From: Chloroflexota bacterium
GTDB lineage: Bacteria > Chloroflexota > Anaerolineae > Anaerolineales > Villigracilaceae
DNA: 37,114 bases
Direction: 5' to 3'
Assembly: GCA_021824575.1 (NCBI GenBank)
Contig: JAKAKJ010000096.1
Location: 1 to 37,114 of the forward strand
Positions within the stretch are counted from its first letter, which is position 1. Each line of letters begins with the position of its first letter. Below the pieces are notes generated by a model. It did no database searches. It saw only the letters and a list, made by a program, of their open reading frames with translations, and was not told where the DNA came from. Shown one piece after another: positions 2,811-32,725 of this stretch. The position numbers were made by a program, and so were the translations under genes.

Positions 2811-4481
2811 ATGAGTGTGGATCGCGCACGCCTCGATAGATTGCGTAATCGGCCATACGATGGTCAGGCAGTCAAACATTTGGTCGAAGCCGGTTTGATG
2901 TGGCTCAAAACCAACCAGCAAACAGTCAATTCTTTAAATGTATTCCCCGTTCCCGATGGCGACACGGGAACGAACATGATGCTTACCATGACCTCCGCAT
3001 GGAATGAGATCAAGGATTCGGCAGAGAGACATGCGGGCCGGATGATGGCCATGGTTGCCAAGGGCGCGCTGATGGGCGCGCGCGGCAACTCAGGCGTGAT
3101 CCTCTCGCAGTTGTGGCGCGGCTTCGCGCGTGGACTTCAGGATTGCGAGGTGATCGACGCGGCTTCTCTCGTGCGCGGCTTTATCGAAGCGCGCGACACA
3201 GCCTATAAAGGCGTGGTCAAACCTGTTGAGGGAACGATCCTCACCGTTGCGAAAGACACGGCAGCCGCAGCGGAGTCGGCGCTGTCAGAAACGCAGGACC
3301 CGCTTGAAGTCCTGGCGAGATGCGTGCCCGCCGCGGACGCGTCCGTCAATCGTACGCCGGAATTGCTTCCGGTTCTGAAGCAGGCTGGTGTCGTCGATTC
3401 CGGCGGCAAAGGTTTATTTTATATTTTGGAAGGAATGATGCGTCACATCAACGGCGAGCCGCTCGATATGCCGCTCGCTGCCGTCCAACCGCTTTCGTCC
3501 TTGAATTTCGAGAATGCCATGGAAGAGGTTGAAGAGGGGCAGGATTTTGAAGTTGTTGTAGATTTTTTCCCAAACAGTCATTTTGAACTGCAGAAGTTTT
3601 ATAACAAGCTGGAAGCAATGGGCACATCCATTCAGGTGGGCGAGGGCGAAGGCATGTACCGCATGCACATCCATGTGCCGACCGACAAACGCTATGAGCC
3701 GATTGATTACATCATGGGCATCGGCACGATCACAAAGGTGGCAATGGAAAACCTTGTGGCGCAATTGGATGAGATCAATGCAAAGTCGTACGGCGGGAAA
3801 CTGGAACTGGTCAAGATTGAACCGAATCAAATTGCGGTGGTGATCGTATCTCCCGGTCCCGGTTTGAGCCGCATCTTTGCCAGTCTCGGCGCGGCCGCCA
3901 TCGTCGAAGGCGGACAAACGATGAATCCATCCACGCAGGAAATTTTATCGGCGTTTGAAAATCTGCCAACGGATAAAGTTATCATTCTTCCGAACAATAA
4001 AAACATTGTGATGGCCGCCAATCAAGCCAAAGATGTGACGGTGAAAAAAGTAGCCGTGGTACCAAGCAAATCGGTGCCGCAGGGATTGGCCGCCATGCTC
4101 GTTCACAACCCGGACGGCGAACTGGATTCCGTTGTTGAGAAGATGACCAAATCTTTGGCTTCCGTCAAATCAGGCGAGGTGACGACGGCGACGCGCTCGG
4201 TCGAGATTGACGGCGTCAATGTGAAAGAGGGCCAGGTCATTGCGCTGCTGGATGACAAGCTGGTGGCTTCAGCCAAATCCGTTGAAGAAGGCTTGCTTGA
4301 TTTGTTGAAGAAAGCCAGCGCTGAAGAACACGAACTCGTTACATTGATCTACGGCGAGGAGATGAACCAGTCTGAGGCGAATCGCATTGTGGATGTGGTG
4401 CGCCAGGCTTATCCCAACCTCGAGATCGAATTGCAGGATGGCGGTCAGCCGCATTATCAATTCATTGTTTCAATAGAATAG
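2811..4481 (+). CDS. fakA: Fatty-acid kinase ATP-binding subunit (DAK2/YloV family)
   Basis: A 556-residue FakA-type protein. The N-terminal DhaL-like kinase domain (about 1-210) carries NVFPVPDGDTGTNM, which binds ATP-Mg through aspartates, and KGALMGARGNSGVILSQL. A middle region and a C-terminal DAK1-like domain follow, with the conserved ending YGGQP.H-type sequence (QDGGQPHYQFIVSIE). FakA phosphorylates fatty acids presented by a DegV/FakB protein to give acyl-phosphate for phospholipid synthesis. The DegV gene next to it supports this role. The kinase role is known from Firmicutes and is inferred here. Confidence 0.9.
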   Translation: MSVDRARLDRLRNRPYDGQAVKHLVEAGLMWLKTNQQTVNSLNVFPVPDGDTGTNMMLTMTSAWNEIKDSAERHAGRMMAMVAKGALMGARGNSGVILSQLWRGFARGLQDCEVIDAASLVRGFIEARDTAYKGVVKPVEGTILTVAKDTAAAAESALSETQDPLEVLARCVPAADASVNRTPELLPVLKQAGVVDSGGKGLFYILEGMMRHINGEPLDMPLAAVQPLSSLNFENAMEEVEEGQDFEVVVDFFPNSHFELQKFYNKLEAMGTSIQVGEGEGMYRMHIHVPTDKRYEPIDYIMGIGTITKVAMENLVAQLDEINAKSYGGKLELVKIEPNQIAVVIVSPGPGLSRIFASLGAAAIVEGGQTMNPSTQEILSAFENLPTDKVIILPNNKNIVMAANQAKDVTVKKVAVVPSKSVPQGLAAMLVHNPDGELDSVVEKMTKSLASVKSGEVTTATRSVEIDGVNVKEGQVIALLDDKLVASAKSVEEGLLDLLKKASAEEHELVTLIYGEEMNQSEANRIVDVVRQAYPNLEIELQDGGQPHYQFIVSIE

Positions 4482-11024: not shown

Positions 11025-14000
11025 ATGACTGACTTTCTCGTCCGCGGCAACCTCGCCAAGCTCGACCCCGATGTTTTCGAATTGACCCAACTCGAGGCCG
11101 AACGTCAGGCCCGCAAATTGATTTTGATCCCATCTGAATCGACCGCTCCGCTCGCGGTCCGCGAGGCCCTGGCCTCGGCCTTCCAAAACATTTACGCCGA
11201 AGGCTATCCCGAAGAAGAGACGCGCTGGATGTCCGAAGAAGAAATTTTGGATTATCCGGCGCGTTTAGGCGAGTATCGCCGCAACGGTGACCCGCGCTAT
11301 TACAAAGGCGTGGAATATGCCGATGTGGTCGAGTCGCTGGCGCGCCGACGCGCGGCGGAAGCCTTTGCCACGAAGGAATATCCCGCCGATAAAATCTTTG
11401 TCAACGTGCAGGCGCTTTCGGGCGGACCCGCCAACAATGCGGTGTATCAGGCGCTGCTCAACATCGGCGATACCGTGATGGGACTCAACCTCCTGCACGG
11501 CGGACATCTCTCACACGGCTCGTCGGTCAACCGCTCGGGCAAGTGGTTCAAGGCTGTTCATTACAACGTGGACGAGAACGAAAGACTCGACTACGACAAG
11601 ATCCGCGCACTGGCTTTGGAGAACAAACCCAAACTCATCATCGCCGGTTATTCATCCTATTCGTGGATTCCAGATTGGAAGAAGTTCCGCAAGATCGCAG
11701 ACGAAGTCGGCGCGTACTTGCTGGCCGACATTTCACACATCGGTGGACTCGTTGCGGCGGGCGTGGTTCCTTCGCCAATCGGGATTGCTCATGTCGTCAT
11801 GTCAACCACGCACAAGAGCCTCGACGGCCCGCGCGGCGCAGTGTTGATGACAACTGATTCAGCAATCGCAAAGAAACTTGATAAAGCTGTCTTCCCCGGT
11901 GAGCAGGGCGGACCGCATGTCAATGTCTTCGCGGCATTGGCATTGACCTTCAAGTTGGCTCAAACCAAAGAGTTCAAGAAGCTTCAAGCGCAAACCATCA
12001 GGAACGCACAAGCCATGGCGGATCAATTCATCAAGCGCGGACTGCGCGTCCCGTTTGGCGGCACGGACTGCCACATGCTCAATGTGGATTGCACGATGGT
12101 CATCGGTGAGGATGGAACAAAACTCAGCGGCGATCAGGCCGCGCGCATTCTCGATATTGTCGGTATTGTTGTCAATCGCAACACAATTCCCGGCGATAAG
12201 AATTCGGCTGATCCATCCGGCATTCGCCTCGGCACACCGTGGATTACACAGCGCGGCTTCACAGAAAAAACCTCGCGCGAACTGGCTGATGTGATGGCTG
12301 ATGTGCTGCTTGCCTGCGCGCCGCATTCCGTGGACACGCCGCGGCATGGACGCCAACGCCGCGCCAAGCTGGATTTCAATGTATTGAATGAGGCACGTTT
12401 GAAAGTTAGAAAGCTGGCAGGTTCAGCAGGGATTGATTTCAAATTCGAGAAGAGCGGCTATCCACATTTCTATTACATTGACGATAAATCCACGACAGGC
12501 GCATTTCAATTAAGCGGCACGCGCGTTCGGCAGGTTTTGGATTATGCCGCGTCCAGTGATCTGTCTGTTTTGAAGAAAGGCAAATCACAGGAGACTTCCA
12601 TCGCGACGCCGAAAGGAATCGTCAACGGCACGTTGACCTGCGTGGATGCGAACACCTACACATTGCAAGTCCCGGTTGCAAAGGCTGGCGTCGTTGCCGC
12701 GTGGCTGCGCGATCTGTCGGATGGATACGCATCCTTCAACCTGGATGGCACAAAAGATTTCAGCGCGAAGCGCATGCCCGGCCCGTTTGTGGTTGCCAAC
12801 GGCAAGGCAGGGGCGAAGCGTGCTTCGCCCGCAGCCAAAGGCGAGGAAAAGCCCTGGTTTATCGGAGTCCCTGTAGGGGCGAGGCATGACTCGCCCTTGC
12901 CGCCATTCATCTGGAAAGAAGTCGAGGGCGAATTAAAGAAGACTCGTTTGAATCAAGTCCATCGAGACTTGGGCGGCAGAATGGTCCCGTTCGCGGGCTG
13001 GGAAATGCCGGTCGTGTACACCAGCATCTATGAAGAACATCTTGCCACGCGTCAGGCGGCGGGACTGTTCGATGTCAGTCACATGGGCGTGTACGATGTG
13101 CGCGGGGCGGACGCGGCTTCGTTCCTCGACACGGTCTGCGGAAACGATTGCGGCGGGCTGATGCCCGGCGAAAGCCTGTACACGCATTTTCTCACGCCCG
13201 ATGCGGACGTGATTGATGACACGCTCGTTTATCGCCGCGGCTTCGATAATTATCTGGTGGTCGTGAACGCATCGAATGATGACAAGGATCGCACGTGGCT
13301 CGAAAGTGTGCGCGATGGAAAAGTGAAGATTGACAACGCGCGGCCGTGGGCGCGGACGTATGGATACAACGCCAACATCCGCAACTTACGGGACCCGAAA
13401 GCGGGTTCCGCCATGCGGGTTGACATCGCCCTTCAAGGACCGAAGTCCCGCGAGACGCTGCTTGCCATGGGCATGGACGATAAGACCAAGGCCCGCGTGA
13501 TGAAGTTGAAACGCACCGAGTTATGCGATGCAGTCGTTGGCGGATTCGATTTGATCGTCTCGCGCACAGGCTATACCGGTGAGAAGATGGCTTTCGAATT
13601 GTTCGTCCATCCCGACCGCGCCGTTGAGTTTTGGAACGCGGTCTTGAAAGCGGGCGAGCCGTTCGGAGTCAAGCCGATCGGTTTGGGTGCGCGCGATAGT
13701 CTGCGCACGGAAGCCGGTCTGCCGTTATACGGCGATGAGATGGGACTTGGCTCCGGCAAGCACGGACACCGCGACCTCGGTGTTGCCGAAGGCGGATTCG
13801 GTTCGTATGTCAAACCGTATAAGCCGTGGTTCATCGGACGCGATGCGTATGTTGCGAGAGAGAAAGAACGCAAGGAAGTTGTCGTGCGCTTCCGCTTCGA
13901 TGACCAGCGCGTACGCATGGCGCATAACAGCGACCCGGTGACGAATGCCGAAGGCAAGACTATCGGTTATGTCACTTCCTGCGCGATTGACATGGATCGT

Positions 14001-14132
14001 TTCTTAACCGGTCAGGCATTTATTGACATGAAATATGCAGTTGAAGGCACGCCGATTATGATCTATCAAGGCGGCGTGATGGATCGTCCGGCAACGCCCG
14101 CGAAGGTGGTGAGCCGGTTCGCAAAGTTGTAA
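11025..14132 (+). CDS. glyA-gcvT: Serine hydroxymethyltransferase-aminomethyltransferase fusion (SHMT-GcvT)
   Basis: A 1035-residue fusion. Residues 1-440 form a PLP-dependent SHMT: LILIPSEST, YAEGYPEEE, a roughly 30-residue insert before YYKGVEYADVVE, LADISHIGGLVAAG, and STTHKSLDGPRGA with Schiff-base lysine K264. Residues 440-640 are a linker region holding a globular part (GYPHFYYIDD, GTRVRQVLDYA) and two in-frame palindromic repeats. Residues 645-1035 form GcvT: GWEMPV, GLFDVSHMGVYDV, YLVVVNASN, ALQGPKSRETLL, GYTGEKMAFELFV, GLGARDSLRTEAGLPLYGDEM. SHMT makes glycine and methylene-tetrahydrofolate; GcvT transfers the glycine-derived methylene group to tetrahydrofolate. Fusion would place two folate enzymes of glycine metabolism together. 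The SHMT half departs from canonical GlyA, so its substrate may differ. Confidence 0.9.
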   Translation: MTDFLVRGNLAKLDPDVFELTQLEAERQARKLILIPSESTAPLAVREALASAFQNIYAEGYPEEETRWMSEEEILDYPARLGEYRRNGDPRYYKGVEYADVVESLARRRAAEAFATKEYPADKIFVNVQALSGGPANNAVYQALLNIGDTVMGLNLLHGGHLSHGSSVNRSGKWFKAVHYNVDENERLDYDKIRALALENKPKLIIAGYSSYSWIPDWKKFRKIADEVGAYLLADISHIGGLVAAGVVPSPIGIAHVVMSTTHKSLDGPRGAVLMTTDSAIAKKLDKAVFPGEQGGPHVNVFAALALTFKLAQTKEFKKLQAQTIRNAQAMADQFIKRGLRVPFGGTDCHMLNVDCTMVIGEDGTKLSGDQAARILDIVGIVVNRNTIPGDKNSADPSGIRLGTPWITQRGFTEKTSRELADVMADVLLACAPHSVDTPRHGRQRRAKLDFNVLNEARLKVRKLAGSAGIDFKFEKSGYPHFYYIDDKSTTGAFQLSGTRVRQVLDYAASSDLSVLKKGKSQETSIATPKGIVNGTLTCVDANTYTLQVPVAKAGVVAAWLRDLSDGYASFNLDGTKDFSAKRMPGPFVVANGKAGAKRASPAAKGEEKPWFIGVPVGARHDSPLPPFIWKEVEGELKKTRLNQVHRDLGGRMVPFAGWEMPVVYTSIYEEHLATRQAAGLFDVSHMGVYDVRGADAASFLDTVCGNDCGGLMPGESLYTHFLTPDADVIDDTLVYRRGFDNYLVVVNASNDDKDRTWLESVRDGKVKIDNARPWARTYGYNANIRNLRDPKAGSAMRVDIALQGPKSRETLLAMGMDDKTKARVMKLKRTELCDAVVGGFDLIVSRTGYTGEKMAFELFVHPDRAVEFWNAVLKAGEPFGVKPIGLGARDSLRTEAGLPLYGDEMGLGSGKHGHRDLGVAEGGFGSYVKPYKPWFIGRDAYVAREKERKEVVVRFRFDDQRVRMAHNSDPVTNAEGKTIGYVTSCAIDMDRFLTGQAFIDMKYAVEGTPIMIYQGGVMDRPATPAKVVSRFAKL
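12810..12830 (+). repeat. Palindromic repeat in frame in the SHMT-GcvT linker (copy 1)
   Basis: GGGGCGAAGCGTGCTTCGCC plus C forms a near-perfect palindrome inside the coding sequence, read as residues 596-602 (GAKRASP) of the linker. It is the same type and frame as the copy 63 bases downstream. Confidence 0.6.
12873..12897 (+). repeat. Palindromic repeat in frame in the SHMT-GcvT linker (copy 2)
   Basis: GTAGGGGCGAGGCATGACTC followed by GCCCT, stem GGGCGAG/CTCGCCC, encoding V617-G-A-R-H-D-S-P-L. The GTA-GGG-GCG frame is the one used by the copy in gatA. Confidence 0.6.
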
Positions 14133-14430: not shown

Positions 14431-14772
14431 ATGTCACAGAAACAACAAGAGGAATCAGAGCAGGAACAGAAACGAAAACTACAGCAACAGCTTGAGCTGG
14501 AACAGGAACAGAAACGAAAACAGCAAAAGGCGGAACGGCAGCAACTGGAACTGGAACAAGAGCAGAAGGAAAAACTGCAAAAAGAGGAACGGCAAAAACT
14601 GGAGCAGGAACAGGTCCAGAGTCAAAAATTGCGTCAGCAGGAACGGGTGCAACTGGAGCAGGAACAGGTACAGAAACTAAAACAGCGGCAACTGGAACAG
14701 GTGCAGTTGGAGCAGGAACAGGAACTGAAACGAAAACTGCAGAAACAGGAAGAGCAACAGAAGAAAAAGTAA
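14431..14772 (+). CDS. Low-complexity protein of five 18-residue Q/E/K/L/R repeats
   Basis: A 113-residue protein made almost only of Gln, Glu, Lys, Leu and Arg. After an 18-residue start (MSQKQQEESEQEQKRKLQ) come five tandem 18-residue units (19-36, 37-54, 55-72, 73-90, 91-108) of the type QQLELEQEQKEKLQKEER, then QQKKK. The 54-bp DNA period is imperfect, so the repeats are old. Eighteen residues equal five turns of alpha-helix, which fits a long single or coiled-coil helix. AGAGGAAAGC upstream is a reasonable ribosome-binding site. Flanked by two degenerate gcvT-end copies. I recognise no family; a real protein is likely because the frame stays open and codons stay within the same five amino acids. 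Confidence 0.55.
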   Translation: MSQKQQEESEQEQKRKLQQQLELEQEQKRKQQKAERQQLELEQEQKEKLQKEERQKLEQEQVQSQKLRQQERVQLEQEQVQKLKQRQLEQVQLEQEQELKRKLQKQEEQQKKK

Positions 14773-15053: not shown

Positions 15054-17633
15054 ATGGCAAAAGAAGAATTTGTATCTCGCGGGCGAAAGATCGATACAAT
15101 TGATGTTCGTATTAGCCACCGAATCATTCAGTTATTTTCTGAAGGCTTGTATTCTAGCCCCCATAAAGCGATTGAAGAACTCGTTTCCAATTCGTTTGAT
15201 GCCTCTGCCGCAAATGTACACGTAATTCTGTCCCCTGACCTTACGGCATCAGATGCAGTTATTGTTGTTATTGATGATGGCGAAGGAATGGATCTAAGTG
15301 CATTAAAAGAACATTGGATTATTGGACGAAGTAGGCGAAGGTACGAATCGGGAAGAAACGGGCGAAAGATGATTGGTAAGTTTGGAATTGGCAAGCTTGC
15401 TACTTACGTCTTGGCAGAACGTTTGACACATATTTGTAAATCCAATGGAGATTTCTTTTCTACAACAATGGATTACACCGCCGCTTTGGCACCTTCAAAA
15501 CAAGCAGATAAGCTCAATCTGGGCGAAGAAGGGGTATTTAACGATAATAAAATCACAATCCCGATTCGAAAGCTCACTGAAGAGGATGCTGAACAGTTGT
15601 TACTTCCGTGGATTAAGGGTCAAAAAGAGGGTTACAAAGCATTAAAGTTGTTTGGTAAAAATGCTGCTTCTTCTTGGACTGTGGCGATTATGTCTGGATT
15701 AAAACCAATGGGGGAGAAAATCCAACGCGGTAAGCTAAAATGGATTTTGAGTACTGCTATGCCACTACGAGACGACTTTAGACTATTCCTCGATGGCGAG
15801 CGCGTGCGACCATCAAAGCTTGAAGTGCCCATTATTCAAAAATGGATTATCGGCAAAGATATTGTTAAAGATGTATTGAGAGATCCTTGTCCTGAAGACT
15901 TTGAAACCACAGAGGATAAAAGCGTTCCAAAAGACTCTATACACCGCTATGGTCTTTCTCATCCTAAATTGGGCCGCATTACAGGATATATGGAACTTTA
16001 TCAGGATGACATAACCACCGGCAAATCATCTAACTTGTTAGGACGGAGTAACGGCTTTTTCGTATATGTTCATGGACGCATGATTAACACATCTGATGAA
16101 GATGATGGTTTTGGTATACCAAGGAATTTACTGAGACATGGAACATTCTCCCAATTTCGAATGGTCGTTCATATCGACAGTTTGGATGATGTCTTGCGGT
16201 CGTCAAGAGAATCATTGCAACAAGGAGAATTGTATAAGCTAACACAGGATTTTCTTCATGCGTCGTTCAACTTGGCTCGCAATCGGCTAGTTGAGCATGA
16301 GAAGATGCAAACTCCAGGCGCGCTCCTTGGCGCTCGTCTATCTGCGACACCTGGGAGTTTAACAAGAACGCCTCTTTTTGCTTTAGCAAAATTGACGATC
16401 GAGGGTAAGGTCAGACCCATTTATACAAAGTTTCGCGAAACTCTCGATGAAATTGGTAAAGCAGAATTAATTGAACAACTTAATGTTCAACTTCATTCGA
16501 AAGTCGATATTGTTCAGTTAACCGAGTTAGTCACTTTAGACAGTAAAGATGGCATCGCAATCTACGATGTAGAGAACAGCAAACTGCTTATTAATTCATC
16601 GCACCCTTTTGTTGCAGCGTTTCAAGAACTTTACACAAAACCTGCAATTAATATGCCGTTAGAGATGTATGCCATGACAGAAGTGTTGACTGAAGCTTAC
16701 CTCTATTACATGGGATATGAGGAGAGTAGAATTCGGGACATTCTGCACCAAAGAGACGAATTGCTCCGATATTTTGTTCGGTCTGCCATTCATCGAACGC
16801 CGGGAATGATTGCATTGGCTCTCAGTGATGCAAAAGACGATGAGAACAATTTAGAAATTGAACTGCGAGCAGCTTTTGAAGCTATAGGGTTTGATAATGT
16901 CATTCGAATTGGAGGCAAGGGTAATCCTGATGGCACAGCGGAAGCATATCTAGCCGCATCAGAAGATGGCACTGTGCAAAATTATAAGGTTGGCTTGGAG
17001 GCTAAGAGCGGCGGAAGAGTGAGTGCCAAACGACTGGGTGTTTCTGGAATTGCTCGACATATGAGTAATTTTAAGTGCGATCATCACGTTGTTATTGGAA
17101 ATGGTTTCGAAACCTCTACAGGTGATGATTCGGCATCAGTAATAGAGATAAAAGAACTCATAGAAAAAACTAGGAAAACTATTACCCTATTACACGTTGA
17201 CGATCTTGCGCGGCTTGTAAGGCTAGTTCCTGCTAAACGAATAAGCCTCTTGCGTTTGCGAGAGTTGTTCCAGACTTGTATTACTCCTGAGGAATCCAGA
17301 GATTGGATCAATGACGTTGAGAAAGAGGTATCCGAAAAATTACCGTACAAGGAAATCCTTGAAACTATATGGGATCGAGCCAAGAGTAGGCCAGATCATG
17401 CCGTTGAATACGCAGCAGTAATGACCGCCTTAGAATATCGTAAGCCATCAATAAAGATATCTAAACACGATCTAATAAACTATTGCAAAGCAATGCAAGC
17501 CATGGCCCCCGGTGTTGTCTTTGCGCGAGAGGCAAATGTAGAAATCAGGCGTCGACCTGACCTCGTTCTAAAGGATATTCAAGAATCGATTGATGAATAC
17601 CCCGAGGACGAAAGAAAAAACATCAGAATATGA
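15054..17633 (+). CDS. GHKL (MORC/MutL-like) ATPase with C-terminal PD-(D/E)xK nuclease-like domain
   Basis: An 859-residue protein. The N-terminal Bergerat-fold ATPase shows all three boxes: N-box IEELVSNSFDAS (41-51), G1 VIDDGEGMD (72-80) and G2 GKFGIGKLA (108-116), of the Hsp90/MutL/MORC type. An S5-like middle domain follows (RSNGFFVYVHGRMIN, FRMVVHIDSLDDVLRSSRESL). Near residues 600-680 a restriction-endonuclease-like core is visible: ELRAAFEAIGF helix, D626 in GNPDG, and E649-A-K651 in VGLEAKSGG. The gene overlaps the methyltransferase gene by ATGA, so translation is coupled. GHKL ATPases fused to nuclease domains beside methylases were described computationally as restriction-modification components (the group around MORC). 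Base composition is AT-richer than the neighbours. Predicted role: ATP-dependent restriction subunit. Confidence 0.8.
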   Translation: MAKEEFVSRGRKIDTIDVRISHRIIQLFSEGLYSSPHKAIEELVSNSFDASAANVHVILSPDLTASDAVIVVIDDGEGMDLSALKEHWIIGRSRRRYESGRNGRKMIGKFGIGKLATYVLAERLTHICKSNGDFFSTTMDYTAALAPSKQADKLNLGEEGVFNDNKITIPIRKLTEEDAEQLLLPWIKGQKEGYKALKLFGKNAASSWTVAIMSGLKPMGEKIQRGKLKWILSTAMPLRDDFRLFLDGERVRPSKLEVPIIQKWIIGKDIVKDVLRDPCPEDFETTEDKSVPKDSIHRYGLSHPKLGRITGYMELYQDDITTGKSSNLLGRSNGFFVYVHGRMINTSDEDDGFGIPRNLLRHGTFSQFRMVVHIDSLDDVLRSSRESLQQGELYKLTQDFLHASFNLARNRLVEHEKMQTPGALLGARLSATPGSLTRTPLFALAKLTIEGKVRPIYTKFRETLDEIGKAELIEQLNVQLHSKVDIVQLTELVTLDSKDGIAIYDVENSKLLINSSHPFVAAFQELYTKPAINMPLEMYAMTEVLTEAYLYYMGYEESRIRDILHQRDELLRYFVRSAIHRTPGMIALALSDAKDDENNLEIELRAAFEAIGFDNVIRIGGKGNPDGTAEAYLAASEDGTVQNYKVGLEAKSGGRVSAKRLGVSGIARHMSNFKCDHHVVIGNGFETSTGDDSASVIEIKELIEKTRKTITLLHVDDLARLVRLVPAKRISLLRLRELFQTCITPEESRDWINDVEKEVSEKLPYKEILETIWDRAKSRPDHAVEYAAVMTALEYRKPSIKISKHDLINYCKAMQAMAPGVVFAREANVEIRRRPDLVLKDIQESIDEYPEDERKNIRI

Positions 17634-18847
17634 GCGAAAAAGAGAGAATTTTACAAGTATCTCCAATTCACCCCTTTCCTGCAAGAATGGCCCCTTCAAT
17701 AGTTTGGGATAATTTACCAAATTATGGGAGGCCGATGAAAATTCTTGACCCTATGGCAGGATCAGGTACATCTCTTGTAATTGCCAAAGCATTAGGCCAT
17801 CGTGCAATCGGATGTGATACAGACCCATTAGCGATCCTGCTTGCTAGTGCTTGGTGCTCAGGTGTTTCATCTGACATACTTTTACGACACGCTAATTTAG
17901 TTCTTGGCAATGCGGTTAACCTAGCCAAAAAGCTCACTCTAAAGAATGCTTATCCAACATACGCAGACAATGAAACCAAGCAATTTATAGATTTTTGGTT
18001 TGATGATAAAAACCGCATTCAGCTAACTGCCTTAGCGAATAGTATATCGAAAATTTCTAATACTAGTGAAAAGAATCTGCTTTGGACTGCTTTTTCCCGT
18101 ATGATTATCACTAAGAAAATTGGCGTATCTCTTGCTATGGATGTTTCTCATAGTCGTCCACATAGGAAATATGAGATAGCACCTGTTAGTCCATTTGAAA
18201 GGTTTCTTGATGCCGTAGAATATTTGGTCAAGAAAGCGCCATTTCGCGATATCGACCCTAAAGTTAATCCTGCTATTGTGGTAAAGGGAGACGCTAGGGC
18301 TTTATCCTTCAAAAGCAAGAGCATTGATATGGTGATTACATCCCCCCCTTATCTTAATGCTTTGGATTATATTCGTGGTCACAAACTTTCCCTGGTTTGG
18401 ATGGGATATCCCATAAAAACGTTAAGAACTGTGCGCTCGACCAATATTGGAGTGGAACGTTCATTATTGTCATATAGCACTCAAGAGTTTGCCAAGGTTA
18501 TTAGACAAACAATAGATTTAGATAATCTTACATCACGATATCACGGGATGCTCATTCGTTATCTCACAGATATGAGCAATGTTCTAAAAGAGTGTAGCCG
18601 TGTGCTAAAGGATAATGGACAGGCTATCTTTGTAGTTGGAAATTCCACCATTCAAGGGACTTATATAAATAATTCGGAAATGTTAATAAGCTTGGCTGAG
18701 AAAAGAGGCCTAAAACTTCTTTCAAAATCTAGCCGAGCATTGCCTGAATCTAGGAGATATCTTCCTCCTCCAAATTCAGATAGGGCGGGTCAGCAACTGC
18801 AAAATCGAATGAGAGAAGAAGCCATCTTGCAGTTTGTTGTTGCATAG
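17630..18847 (+). CDS. DNA methyltransferase (N4-cytosine/N6-adenine type)
   Basis: A 405-residue amino-methyltransferase. Motif X-like HPFPARM lies at 14-20, motif I DPMAGSGTS at 40-48, the acidic SAM ribose residue in GCDTDPLA (61-68), and catalytic motif IV TSPPY at 237-241, followed by LNALDYIRG. Motif I comes first and a roughly 170-residue variable segment, probably target recognition, separates it from motif IV, as in alpha-type ordering. The C-terminal half holds a VLKDNGQAIFVVGNS strand. It starts within the stop of the ATPase gene (ATGA overlap). By context it should protect host DNA at the site attacked by the partner. TSPPY fits either N4-C or N6-A, so the base is undecided. Confidence 0.85.
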   Translation: MSEKERILQVSPIHPFPARMAPSIVWDNLPNYGRPMKILDPMAGSGTSLVIAKALGHRAIGCDTDPLAILLASAWCSGVSSDILLRHANLVLGNAVNLAKKLTLKNAYPTYADNETKQFIDFWFDDKNRIQLTALANSISKISNTSEKNLLWTAFSRMIITKKIGVSLAMDVSHSRPHRKYEIAPVSPFERFLDAVEYLVKKAPFRDIDPKVNPAIVVKGDARALSFKSKSIDMVITSPPYLNALDYIRGHKLSLVWMGYPIKTLRTVRSTNIGVERSLLSYSTQEFAKVIRQTIDLDNLTSRYHGMLIRYLTDMSNVLKECSRVLKDNGQAIFVVGNSTIQGTYINNSEMLISLAEKRGLKLLSKSSRALPESRRYLPPPNSDRAGQQLQNRMREEAILQFVVA

Positions 18848-30441: not shown

Positions 30442-31497
30442 ATGAATGACAGACCTTCCGTAACACGGCGCGACTTTCTCAAATTGAGCGGATTGGGGCT
30501 TCTCGGTTTATCCCTGCCAGGCTTTACGCAAAGAGCGGCGCATTCGCCGCTCAATCTATTTTCGCAGGATTTTTTGGATGCCCAGCAGGGACGCGTCACA
30601 ACCCGCCTGATCTGGCTTTATGACAAGCCGTCCTTAAAAGCCAATTCAGTAAAGATGTACTGGCGCGATTCGGTGTTACCCATCACGGATGTCACAGTCA
30701 GCGATGACGTGAATGCTTACAACCGCGTTTGGTACCAGATTGGCAATGAAGGCTTTGCTTATTCCGGCACGATTCAACCCGTTCGCACGATTCTCAATAC
30801 GCCGACGATGAATATTCCAACAAGCGGAGTCCTCGGCGAAGTCACCGTCCCGTTCACGGACGCGCATGAGAACGCCGACGCAAAATCCGCAGCGGCTTAT
30901 CGGATGTATTACGAAACCACACATTGGATTTTGTCTGCAGCCAAATCAGCGGATGGGAATATTTGGTATCAGGTGCTGGACGACAAATGGAACAAACGCT
31001 ATTACGCGCCCGGCGAGCATCTTCGCATCATCCCGGACGAGGAACTGGCTCCCATTTCCCCAAACGTCCCCGACACCCAAAAGCGAATCCAGGTGCAATT
31101 GGACAATCAACTTGTATTTGCTTATGAAAATGACAATCCGGTTTTCGCGACGCGCGCTTCGAGCGGAGCGCAATTCCGCGATGGGACATATTCGACCCCA
31201 ACCGGCTCGTTCATGACCTATCATAAACGTCCGACACGCCACATGGCTGCTGGTGACCTGACATCCGACGGCTACGACCTGCCCGGCGTGCCGTGGGTAA
31301 TGTACATCAACGAAGCTGGCGTTTCGCTGCACGGAACCTTCTGGCACAATGACTTCGGCCATCCACACAGCCACGGATGTGTGAACTTGAGCATTGCATC
31401 CGCCAAATGGCTTTTTCGCTGGACAACGCCGGTTGTCCCACCGGCCGATCAGTTTGCGTATGAACCAAAAGGCACGCTGGTTGAAATTGTGAAATGA
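30442..31497 (+). CDS. Tat-exported L,D-transpeptidase (YkuD family), first of a tandem pair
   Basis: A 351-residue secreted enzyme. The N-terminus has a twin-arginine signal (VTRRDFLKLSG, R9-R10, then a Leu/Gly-rich hydrophobic stretch). Residues about 50-210 hold SH3-like segments (RVWYQIGNEGFAYSG, IWYQVLDDKWNKRYYAPGEHLR). The C-terminal YkuD domain (about 215-351) has HGTFWHNDFGHPHSHGCVNLS with catalytic C313. Such enzymes form 3-3 peptidoglycan crosslinks or attach proteins. Tat export suggests folding before export. The second gene encodes a paralogue, 196 bases downstream. Confidence 0.9.
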   Translation: MNDRPSVTRRDFLKLSGLGLLGLSLPGFTQRAAHSPLNLFSQDFLDAQQGRVTTRLIWLYDKPSLKANSVKMYWRDSVLPITDVTVSDDVNAYNRVWYQIGNEGFAYSGTIQPVRTILNTPTMNIPTSGVLGEVTVPFTDAHENADAKSAAAYRMYYETTHWILSAAKSADGNIWYQVLDDKWNKRYYAPGEHLRIIPDEELAPISPNVPDTQKRIQVQLDNQLVFAYENDNPVFATRASSGAQFRDGTYSTPTGSFMTYHKRPTRHMAAGDLTSDGYDLPGVPWVMYINEAGVSLHGTFWHNDFGHPHSHGCVNLSIASAKWLFRWTTPVVPPADQFAYEPKGTLVEIVK

Positions 31498-31502
31498 ACA
31501 AG

Positions 31503-31610
31503 ATGTCACCGCGAGGAGCCAAGCGGTGCAGCGGTCTCAAGAATCAATAAAAATTGTTTGGCTGAAGTGCGAGATCGCCACACCACGAAGAACGCGGCTC
31601 GCAATGACAT
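31503..31610. repeat. MITE-like inverted-repeat element, copy 2
   Basis: A 108-bp element with ends ATGTCACCGCGAGGAGC and CGGCTCGCAATGACAT, sharing the ATGTCA-GCGAGGAGC termini with the element at 14202-14296. It lies 6 bases after the first transpeptidase stop. The inner sequence differs, with an AT-rich centre. Confidence 0.65.
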
Positions 31611-31693
31611 GAAGAAGTGGTAAGAATTGTATTAGACTTGTCACTATCCCATTTCTTGAGCCCTTTAAATCAGATACAATCCAGTTACACAAA

Positions 31694-32725
31694 ATGACAG
31701 CCTTCCCTTTATCACGCCGCGATTTTCTCAGACTTTCAGGCGCAGGTTTGCTCGGCGCAGTGCTCGCCGAACTGCGACTCGACCGTGTCCTCGCCGCATC
31801 GGTGAAACAGGCGCGCACCACCTTGAGCGGAATCAGTCTGTACAGCGAGCCATCCTACAAATCCAAACAGCTTTACATCTTCAACCGGGACCAGGTGGTG
31901 GATGTCCTTGGACAAACCGCCGGCGATTATGGAAATCCATACAACAACATCTGGTTTCAAATTGATAAAGGCTATGCCTATTCCGGTTTTCTTCAGCCGG
32001 TGGAAACAAATTATCAAAAGCCCATCTTCGATATTCCCGCCGCAGGACAATTGGGCGAGATCACGGTTCCATACAGCGACACGCATATTGATTCGAGCAC
32101 CTGGTCGGATCGCGGTTATCGCGTCTATTATGCAACGACGCATTGGGTGACGGGCGTTGCTGTCAACCGTTACGAAAAAACAATCTGGTACAAAATCTAC
32201 GATAGCGAAATTCACAACTCACTTTATGTCCAGGCTTCGGATATGCGCCTCGTGCCAAACGATGAATTGTCTCCGCTTTCGACCAATGTTCCTGCTTCCG
32301 AAAAACATATTTACGTGGATGTTGCCACACAATTAGTCACCGCGTTCGAAGGCGATAAATCCGTGTTGACGGCGCGTTGTTCCAGCGGAGGCAAAGGTAC
32401 GCGGACGCCGCTCGGCGATTTTTTGACATTCCACAAAGGCCCGACCATCCACATGACCAATGACGGCGCGGCCGGCGCGGGTCGCGGTTATGATCTGCCG
32501 GGCGTGCCGTGGGTCTCATTCTTCACCGGAACCGGCGACTCATTTCACGGCACGTACTGGCACAACGATTACGGTCAGCCGCGCAGTCATGGATGCGTGA
32601 ACCTGCTTCCAGTCGACGCGAAATTCATTTATCGCTGGACCCTGCCCGAAGTCCCGGTTGATGTTCAATATCTCTACAAGCCCGGTGAGGGGACGAACGT
32701 CCAGATCGTTTCGTCGAATTCATAA
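31694..32725 (+). CDS. Tat-exported L,D-transpeptidase (YkuD family), second of a tandem pair
   Basis: A 343-residue paralogue of the upstream gene. Twin-arginine signal LSRRDFLRLSG (R8-R9), then SH3-like segments (NNIWFQIDKGYAYSG, TIWYKIYDSEIHNSLYVQASDMR), and the YkuD domain with FHGTYWHNDYGQPRSHGCVNLL and catalytic C301. The shared RxVYYxTTHW and GYDLPGVPWV segments show recent common ancestry. TACAAT at 31675-31680 could be its own -10 box. The next small gene follows by 9 bases, so they are likely co-transcribed. Confidence 0.9.
   Translation: MTAFPLSRRDFLRLSGAGLLGAVLAELRLDRVLAASVKQARTTLSGISLYSEPSYKSKQLYIFNRDQVVDVLGQTAGDYGNPYNNIWFQIDKGYAYSGFLQPVETNYQKPIFDIPAAGQLGEITVPYSDTHIDSSTWSDRGYRVYYATTHWVTGVAVNRYEKTIWYKIYDSEIHNSLYVQASDMRLVPNDELSPLSTNVPASEKHIYVDVATQLVTAFEGDKSVLTARCSSGGKGTRTPLGDFLTFHKGPTIHMTNDGAAGAGRGYDLPGVPWVSFFTGTGDSFHGTYWHNDYGQPRSHGCVNLLPVDAKFIYRWTLPEVPVDVQYLYKPGEGTNVQIVSSNS

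Follow-up and report, generated by a model that had tools for sequence, protein, structure and literature searches.

Proteins that join a GHKL ATPase to a nuclease are already known from restriction systems. Prokaryotic operons with MORC ATPases have a proposed role in restriction, and paraMORC3 proteins with a restriction-enzyme fold and an E-D-ExK active site were described in 2008 by Iyer and colleagues; the passages of that paper on gene neighbourhoods give a helicase in about 70% of MORC neighbourhoods and none in a minority of the MORC-methylase neighbourhoods (PMC2292703). In the BbrUII/HgiDII systems (NCBIfam NF050001), a GHKL-S5 ATPase forms the N-terminus of the enzyme, another part follows on the C-terminal side and a methyltransferase gene lies alongside; the known partners M.HgiDII and M.BbrUII are named as C5-methylases in the relevant part of PMC5867850. 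VcSduA, of the paraMORC3/Shedu type I-D, places a PD-(D/E)xK nuclease after the GHKL ATPase; the sections of PMC12137116 on this protein describe the nuclease as DUF4263, the system as a single gene and the modelled protein as an entwined dimer, and report that phage defence is abolished by mutation of either the GHKL part (E27A) or the nuclease (K557A). Here we analyzed a gene pair in a 37,114-nucleotide stretch of DNA from a Chloroflexota bacterium (contig JAKAKJ010000096.1, positions 1 to 37,114; referred to here as “the window”), in which a MORC-like GHKL ATPase is fused to a predicted FokI-type nuclease and is followed by the gene of an amino DNA methyltransferase. The pair is likely to be a self-contained two-gene restriction-modification (RM) system, in which a GHKL clamp would pair FokI-type domains on unprotected DNA. 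The literature matches listed contain no such combination of FokI-type domain, MORC-like ATPase and amino-methyltransferase partner, with REBASE entries outside the scope of the comparison.

An earlier note, made from the DNA letters alone, had proposed a two-gene ATP-dependent RM system here. Both open reading frames (ORFs) and their ATGA coupling are present at the coordinates that it gave. The features of the pair are as follows.

15054-17633, plus strand: GHKL ATPase fused to a FokI-type nuclease (R-like protein), 859 residues (ORF; HATPase_c_3, E 2.4e-19; AlphaFold2 models)
15102-16304, plus strand: GHKL and S5 (transducer) module, MORC/Hsp90-like, residues 17-417 (VIA-align of the full model; conserved residues)
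16800-17309, plus strand: predicted FokI-type PD-(D/E)xK nuclease, residues 583-752, with E601, D626, E649 and K651 (AlphaFold2, VIA-align, Foldseek, conservation)
17328-17585, plus strand: winged-helix-like domain, possible DNA reader, residues 759-844 (VIA-align, weak)
17630-17633, plus strand: ATGA start/stop overlap of both genes (ORF coordinates)
17630-18847, plus strand: amino DNA methyltransferase (N4-methylcytosine, m4C, or N6-methyladenine, m6A), 405 residues (N6_N4_Mtase, E 5e-12; PADLOC PDLC03322, E 3e-31)
17747-17770, plus strand: methyltransferase motif I DPMAGSGT, residues 40-47 (D40, G44, G46 and T47 invariant in 8/8)
18338-18352, plus strand: methyltransferase motif IV TSPPY, residues 237-241 (invariant in 8/8)
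18425-18559, plus strand: least conserved block of the methyltransferase, residues 266-310, candidate target-recognition segment (pairwise identity)

No model in Pfam, PADLOC, NCBIfam or PHROGs covers the 859-residue protein at full length. Its C-terminal half has no significant match in these four collections, and the PHROGs matches lie at the ATPase end alone. The nuclease is seen instead in the predicted structure. The AlphaFold2 model of the C-terminal part, residues 583-859 (predicted local distance difference test, pLDDT, 87.9; predicted template modelling score, pTM, 0.83), has FokI as its best fold match in VIA-align (2fok_A, Z 16.3, 151 residues aligned, 2.3 Å, 16% identity), followed by Nt.BspD6I (Z 15.3) and HindIII (Z 13.2), after which the scores fall to about 9; FokI stands well above the matches ranked below 10. 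Moreover, the Foldseek search against the PDB put three FokI chains on top (E 2.4e-5 to 2.4e-4, probability 1.00), and the full-length model, which was built from 11 sequences (mean pLDDT 78, pTM 0.50) and is usable within domains, also yielded FokI (Z 15.8). The predicted domain combines an alpha-beta core fold with E-D-(D/E)xK residues. In the hhalign profile alignment with FokI, P625-D626-G627 fall on PDG and E649-A-K651 on D-T-K, so that positions 626, 649 and 651 presumably correspond to D450, D467 and K469 of FokI.

The residues of this putative active site are highly conserved. Among 22 aligned sequences, namely the window protein and 21 full-length relatives, E601 and K651 are kept in 22/22, D626 in 21/22, and position 649 is E or D in all 22; this conservation is therefore more than chance. 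D626, G627, A650, K651 and S652 are also identical in all members of a ten-protein full-length alignment, again with E or D at 649. The earlier note had singled out D626, E649 and K651 in a nuclease-like context; these residues stand as it numbered them, and E601 joins them as a fourth.

We then compared the gene surroundings of the relatives. The 21 distinct full-length relatives come from genome contigs (8), relatives of the window genome (1), the window's phylum (5), viral contigs (3) and the phylum of locus L004 (4). Some labels denote the same places (L054/L081, L057/L059/L084, L055/L082 and L056/L058/L083), and one contig-end fragment (L008/L089), another fragment (L062) and matches to the ATPase end only were left out of the counts. 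A plasmid locus, L052, was rejected as a relative, with two weak match pieces and no PDG...(D/E)xK pattern. No place covering 80% of the query was present among the matches listed from the plasmid and phage collections, and a viral scan (A5) gave no new relative, recovering the L061 contig alone.

A DNA methylase gene was found adjacent to the nuclease gene, or one gene away from it, in 20 of the 21 relatives, with several methyltransferase types among them. A methyltransferase of the window family lies immediately downstream on the same strand in 15/21; in L006 this methyltransferase has diverged (26% identity), and in L010 the contig end truncates it. Five further relatives have methyltransferases of other kinds, placed convergently (L055), upstream (L056) or downstream (L060 and L033), or given as a convergent C5-methylase (L061). 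We also clustered 211 ORFs of at least 90 residues from 16 loci (15 relatives and 20 kb of the window). Exactly two families, the nuclease and the methyltransferase, are common to 16/16 loci, and every other family occurs in at most 3/16. The two proteins also diverge together (Mantel r 0.59, p 0.005; 15 pairs, L010 omitted). Conserved adjacency and intact active-site motifs in both nuclease and methyltransferase are two features expected of a two-gene RM system. The earlier note had held that the lack of a predicted nuclease fold around residues 580-700, or of a conserved pairing in other genomes, would count against its proposal; both were looked at, and the fold is predicted (at residues 583-752) and the pairing is present.

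Single loci among the relatives show further arrangements. On a contig of the viral collection (L094, 3371-7140), ATPase-nuclease and methyltransferase form a pair with a four-base overlap. On another (L061, 1434-5488), a Vsr endonuclease gene comes after the ATPase-nuclease gene, and the convergent C5-methylase gene comes next. Genome G301 (L083, 4983-7487 and 12256-14757) has two diverged ATPase-nuclease copies on opposite strands, ~5 kb apart, and only one of them adjoins a methyltransferase. A helicase-bearing variant is seen at L082 (4953-9408), where a gene matching the Schlafen group 3 helicase domain adjoins a diverged relative and the methyltransferase is convergent.

The N-terminal part of the window protein is a GHKL-S5 module. 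HATPase_c_3 of Pfam matches residues 34-144, and residues 17-417 find MORC3 as their best fold match (5ix2_A, Z 18.2, 303 aligned, 4.5 Å), with MORC4, MORC2 and Hsp90/TRAP1 next (Z 15-17). The order in Foldseek differs, with TRAP1 first (E 1.0e-12) and MORC2 seventh (2.6e-12), all E-values being within a factor of three. Of 13 GHKL-S5 residues checked, 12 are invariant in 22/22 sequences, G78 being the exception; they include E42 and N46 of the N-box, D74xG76 of G1, G108, G111, G113 and K114 of G2, and R342 and R385, so the N-box, G1 and G2 are as intact as had been claimed. The earlier note had also called the module a MORC/MutL-type ATPase. Its fold bears this out, but the S5 motif that defines MORC, given as GhXhhpXXRhl in the motif description of Iyer and colleagues (PMC2292703), does not hold. 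The polar position is V or I in 15/15 sequences, while the G and R of the motif are kept in all 15. Because the motif fails at this position throughout, the module is better named MORC-like than MORC. Membership in paraMORC2 (ExxxH) or paraMORC5 (HxH) was rejected as well, since neither motif is conserved in at least 12 of 15 sequences in a scan of residues 150-600. At the C-terminal end, residues 759-844 resemble the winged helices of ORC/MCM/CDC6 (Z about 7-8), a likeness that may reflect a common arrangement only, and we take them as a candidate DNA reader and no more.

The second gene encodes the methyltransferase. N6_N4_Mtase is its Pfam match, and the PADLOC type II MTase model PDLC03322 covers residues 13-400, near end to end. 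A motif X-like HPFPAR and motif I precede motif IV, an order which we take to be alpha-like. The TSPPY of motif IV suggests that the product is m4C or, less probably, m6A. The earlier note had placed specificity in the long region between motifs I and IV. In the variability profile (14 sequences, L006 omitted), this stretch has a mean pairwise identity of 0.43 and is moderately conserved overall; its 15-residue bins go down to 0.21 and 0.24 and up to 0.70 and 0.75, the latter in the SRPH segment. However, the block after motif IV, residues 266-310, is lower (mean 0.29, lowest bin 0.18) than the other four blocks of the protein (0.43-0.62). The claim is thus doubtful as worded: variable patches do occur between the motifs, and the most variable block lies outside them. 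Judged from the sequence, both the motif I-IV stretch and residues 266-310 hold candidate specificity segments.

How the pair compares with the described systems can now be stated. It shares with BbrUII/HgiDII the N-terminal GHKL-S5 ATPase, the further C-terminal part and the adjacent methyltransferase gene, and an alignment of the ATPase parts spans 357 columns with a probability of 98.9%. Membership in that family was nevertheless rejected, because the window protein reaches 63.9 bits, over the N-terminus only, where the cut-off is 550; a phage protein annotated as ParaMORC3 scores 751. The partner also differs, being an amino-methylase (N6_N4_Mtase) in the window and a C5-methylase in BbrUII/HgiDII. 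The C-terminal parts of BbrUII-type proteins gave no alignment with the window nuclease (0.1%), in a comparison alignment of two proteins that fall on either side of the NF050001 cut-off; because only two members were compared, this is weak as a negative. Read by eye, the BbrUII-type C-terminus looks Shedu-like. With VcSduA the window protein shares the succession of GHKL ATPase and PD-(D/E)xK nuclease, whereas VcSduA is a single gene with a DUF4263 nuclease and the window holds a gene pair whose best nuclease fold match is FokI. Pfam DUF4263 did not match the window protein at E up to 1 (full protein) or 10 (C-terminal part), nor did it match the controls, ParaMORC3 and a plasmid cousin, at E up to 0.01. 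The fold matches listed do not include Shedu, which by itself is uninformative.

The likeness to FokI (type IIS), Nt.BspD6I and HindIII concerns the fold of the cleavage domain and the PDG...(D/E)xK active site. FokI carries its own DNA-recognition domains; the window protein has a GHKL-S5 ATPase as its N-terminal part instead. With the MORC ATPases MORC2 and MORC3 it shares the GHKL-S5 fold and not the MORC S5 motif. Unlike most MORC neighbourhoods, the conserved pair is without a helicase. Profile searches gave no helicase match in either protein, and with no third family in more than 3/16 loci, the ATP-dependent helicase-type RM systems (type I, III, ISP) were rejected as a class for the pair. 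The compact form that had been proposed, with no separate helicase or specificity subunit, agrees with the same count.

The ATPase-nuclease is rare and patchy across genomes. A search for the nuclease protein at E 1e-50 gave hits in 5/400 genomes of the window's phylum (Chloroflexota), in 5/399 of a sample centred on L005, which largely overlaps the former and whose other hits stand at identical places, and in 6/392 of the phylum of L004, one of these being the L008 fragment. Beyond the centre genome, none was found among 289 genomes of the L010 class, 198 of the L003 phylum and 11 relatives of L002. The hosts of L002-L010 are given as metagenome-assembled genomes of Armatimonadetes, Nitrospirales, Planctomycetota, Caldilineaceae (L005), Micrarchaeota (L006), Zixiibacteriota, an unplaced bacterium and Xanthobacteraceae.

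Neighbour profiling, which covered selected neighbours at the relatives' loci, found defence genes near some of them: DUF1156 and Swt1-HEPN/DUF499 at L002, a type I specificity subunit at L003 and HsdM at L081. Around the window pair, the genes profiled have metabolic, transport-like or cell-wall functions or encode RecG. The defence-island context that the earlier note suggested looking for is therefore seen at some relatives' loci and not among the profiled neighbours of the window pair.

The pair is AT-rich, as had been noticed, with a guanine plus cytosine (GC) content of 0.413 against 0.520 in the remainder of the window, and the GC of the pair is below that of the flanks in 13/15 loci. 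Upstream of it, a serine hydroxymethyltransferase is fused to a glycine cleavage T-protein (SHMT-GcvT, 11025-14132, 1035 residues), and a match to this fusion was present in 31/31 related genomes searched. None of the six relatives examined has the pair after SHMT-GcvT (0/6). In G018 about 1.6 kb separate SHMT-GcvT from TspO, with no pair between them, compared with 5.2 kb in the window; in G012 other genes occupy about 11.5 kb after SHMT-GcvT; the other four show no TspO match after it in the stretch covered. Because these six relatives are without the pair there, the pair lies at a site of variable content. The observations suggest that the region after SHMT-GcvT is an insertion hotspot. Transfer of the pair, which the earlier note had read from composition, is supported by the AT-richness together with the absence of the pair from the corresponding site in a member of the same family of genomes.

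Other features were also observed in this region. The genes after SHMT-GcvT differ from relative to relative (L127, L128, L129 and L132), and in G005 they include a nucleotidyltransferase/HEPN gene pair (L129, 11315-12107, minus strand). Between SHMT-GcvT and the pair, the window has a 113-residue ORF (14431-14772) made up nearly entirely of Q, E, K, R and L repeats, and DNA similar to it follows SHMT-GcvT in G012 (L132, about 3290-3490). Farther downstream, at 30442-32725, two L,D-transpeptidase (YkuD) genes adjoin each other on the same strand.

A working model for the pair can be drawn from its parts. A FokI-type domain needs a partner for cutting both strands, and GHKL ATPases dimerise on ATP; together these give the ATPase a plausible role in clamp closure. 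The methyltransferase would mark a short sequence in the host genome. The MORC/Hsp90-like GHKL-S5 module would dimerise on ATP and close round DNA, and the closure would bring two FokI-type cleavage domains together on the captured DNA, where they would pair to cut both strands, as in FokI. Unmethylated foreign DNA would then be cut and methylated self DNA spared. FokI-type domains show little intrinsic sequence specificity, so the target would be read elsewhere in the system, possibly by the winged helix (759-844), by the middle region (about 420-580) or through contact with the methyltransferase. The several methyltransferase types among the relatives suggest that the specificity of the nuclease shifts with them, or that the methyltransferase joins in recognition. 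By analogy, the VcSduA mutants support the logic of GHKL plus nuclease, not this protein itself. More tentatively, the pair may represent restriction enzymes of a class that spends ATP on closing a clamp and not on translocation: the MORC/Hsp90-like clamp would capture DNA topologically and license a non-specific FokI-type nuclease, methylation would be read by the clamp or the methyltransferase, and the target could be changed by a methylase swap; we regard this as possible but rather doubtful.

Several points weigh against the two-gene restriction model. The hhalign alignment with FokI is weak (probability 7.6%, E 0.0046), and L094 has E in place of D626. FokI_cleav_dom of Pfam matched neither the window C-terminal part nor those of six relatives at E up to 10, although FokI itself was matched at 4e-64; because of this miss, the likeness to FokI lies in the fold and the active site, across a large distance in sequence, and the predicted domain lies outside that Pfam family. 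The sole nuclease-type Pfam matches in these seven sequences are Mrr_cat on one of the six relatives (E 0.0018, below cut-off) and NA-iREase1, an inactive-REase model, on another (E 0.032). Among the 15 sequences listed from a PDB profile search with the C-terminal part, none is a nuclease by name (best E 0.13). The full-length model, with a pTM of only 0.50, does not give a reliable arrangement of the domains, and the winged-helix assignment, at Z about 8, is uncertain. Double-strand cutting is not assured either, because FokI-type domains also occur in nicking enzymes such as Nt.BspD6I. Finally, L058 keeps the nuclease residues and is flanked by transporter and lyase genes with no methyltransferase; it is one of two copies in its genome, and the methyltransferase of the other copy is about 3.4 kb off.

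This last locus bears on the idea that the nuclease acts against phages on its own, as a Shedu/VcSduA-like sensor of a phage structure, and that the methyltransferase only protects or tunes it and does not define the target. According to the sections on VcSduA in PMC12137116, a protein of the same GHKL-then-PD-(D/E)xK layout does work as a single gene, but a methylase gene of one type or another accompanies the nuclease gene in nearly all relatives and the two proteins co-diverge, and we consider this explanation unlikely. A modification-dependent system, whose nuclease would read and cut a mark made by the methyltransferase or by phage enzymes, could be imagined because the lower-scoring fold matches include two modification-dependent enzymes, MspJI and AspBHI (Z about 8). 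They rank far below FokI, BspD6I and HindIII (Z 13-16), and a host methylase that targets its own genome would be expected to be lethal to such a host, so this proposal appears very unlikely.

The union of GHKL-S5 and nuclease also recalls MutL, and the pair might then act as a repair or strand-discrimination nickase guided by DNA methylation. The Vsr and C5-methylase genes beside the viral relative L061 would suit such a role, as would the nickase Nt.BspD6I with its same fold; patchy distribution, a site of variable content and several methyltransferase types nevertheless fit defence better than housekeeping repair, which leaves the MutL-like role highly improbable. It is just as improbable that the pair is the remnant of a once-working restriction system whose activity was lost in this genome: the AT-rich insert has a recent look, but both ORFs are uninterrupted and none of the catalytic residues examined is lost. 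The self-contained two-gene RM system therefore remains the explanation that we prefer.

A kinship with the MORC chromatin ATPases of eukaryotes has been proposed for GHKL-nuclease restriction systems. Because a FokI-type domain needs dimerisation, the pair described here gives the ATPase a testable job, and a system of only two genes is small enough to be reconstituted in practice. Should the target indeed be set by the partner methylase, the family would offer a natural example of a re-targetable FokI-type nuclease.

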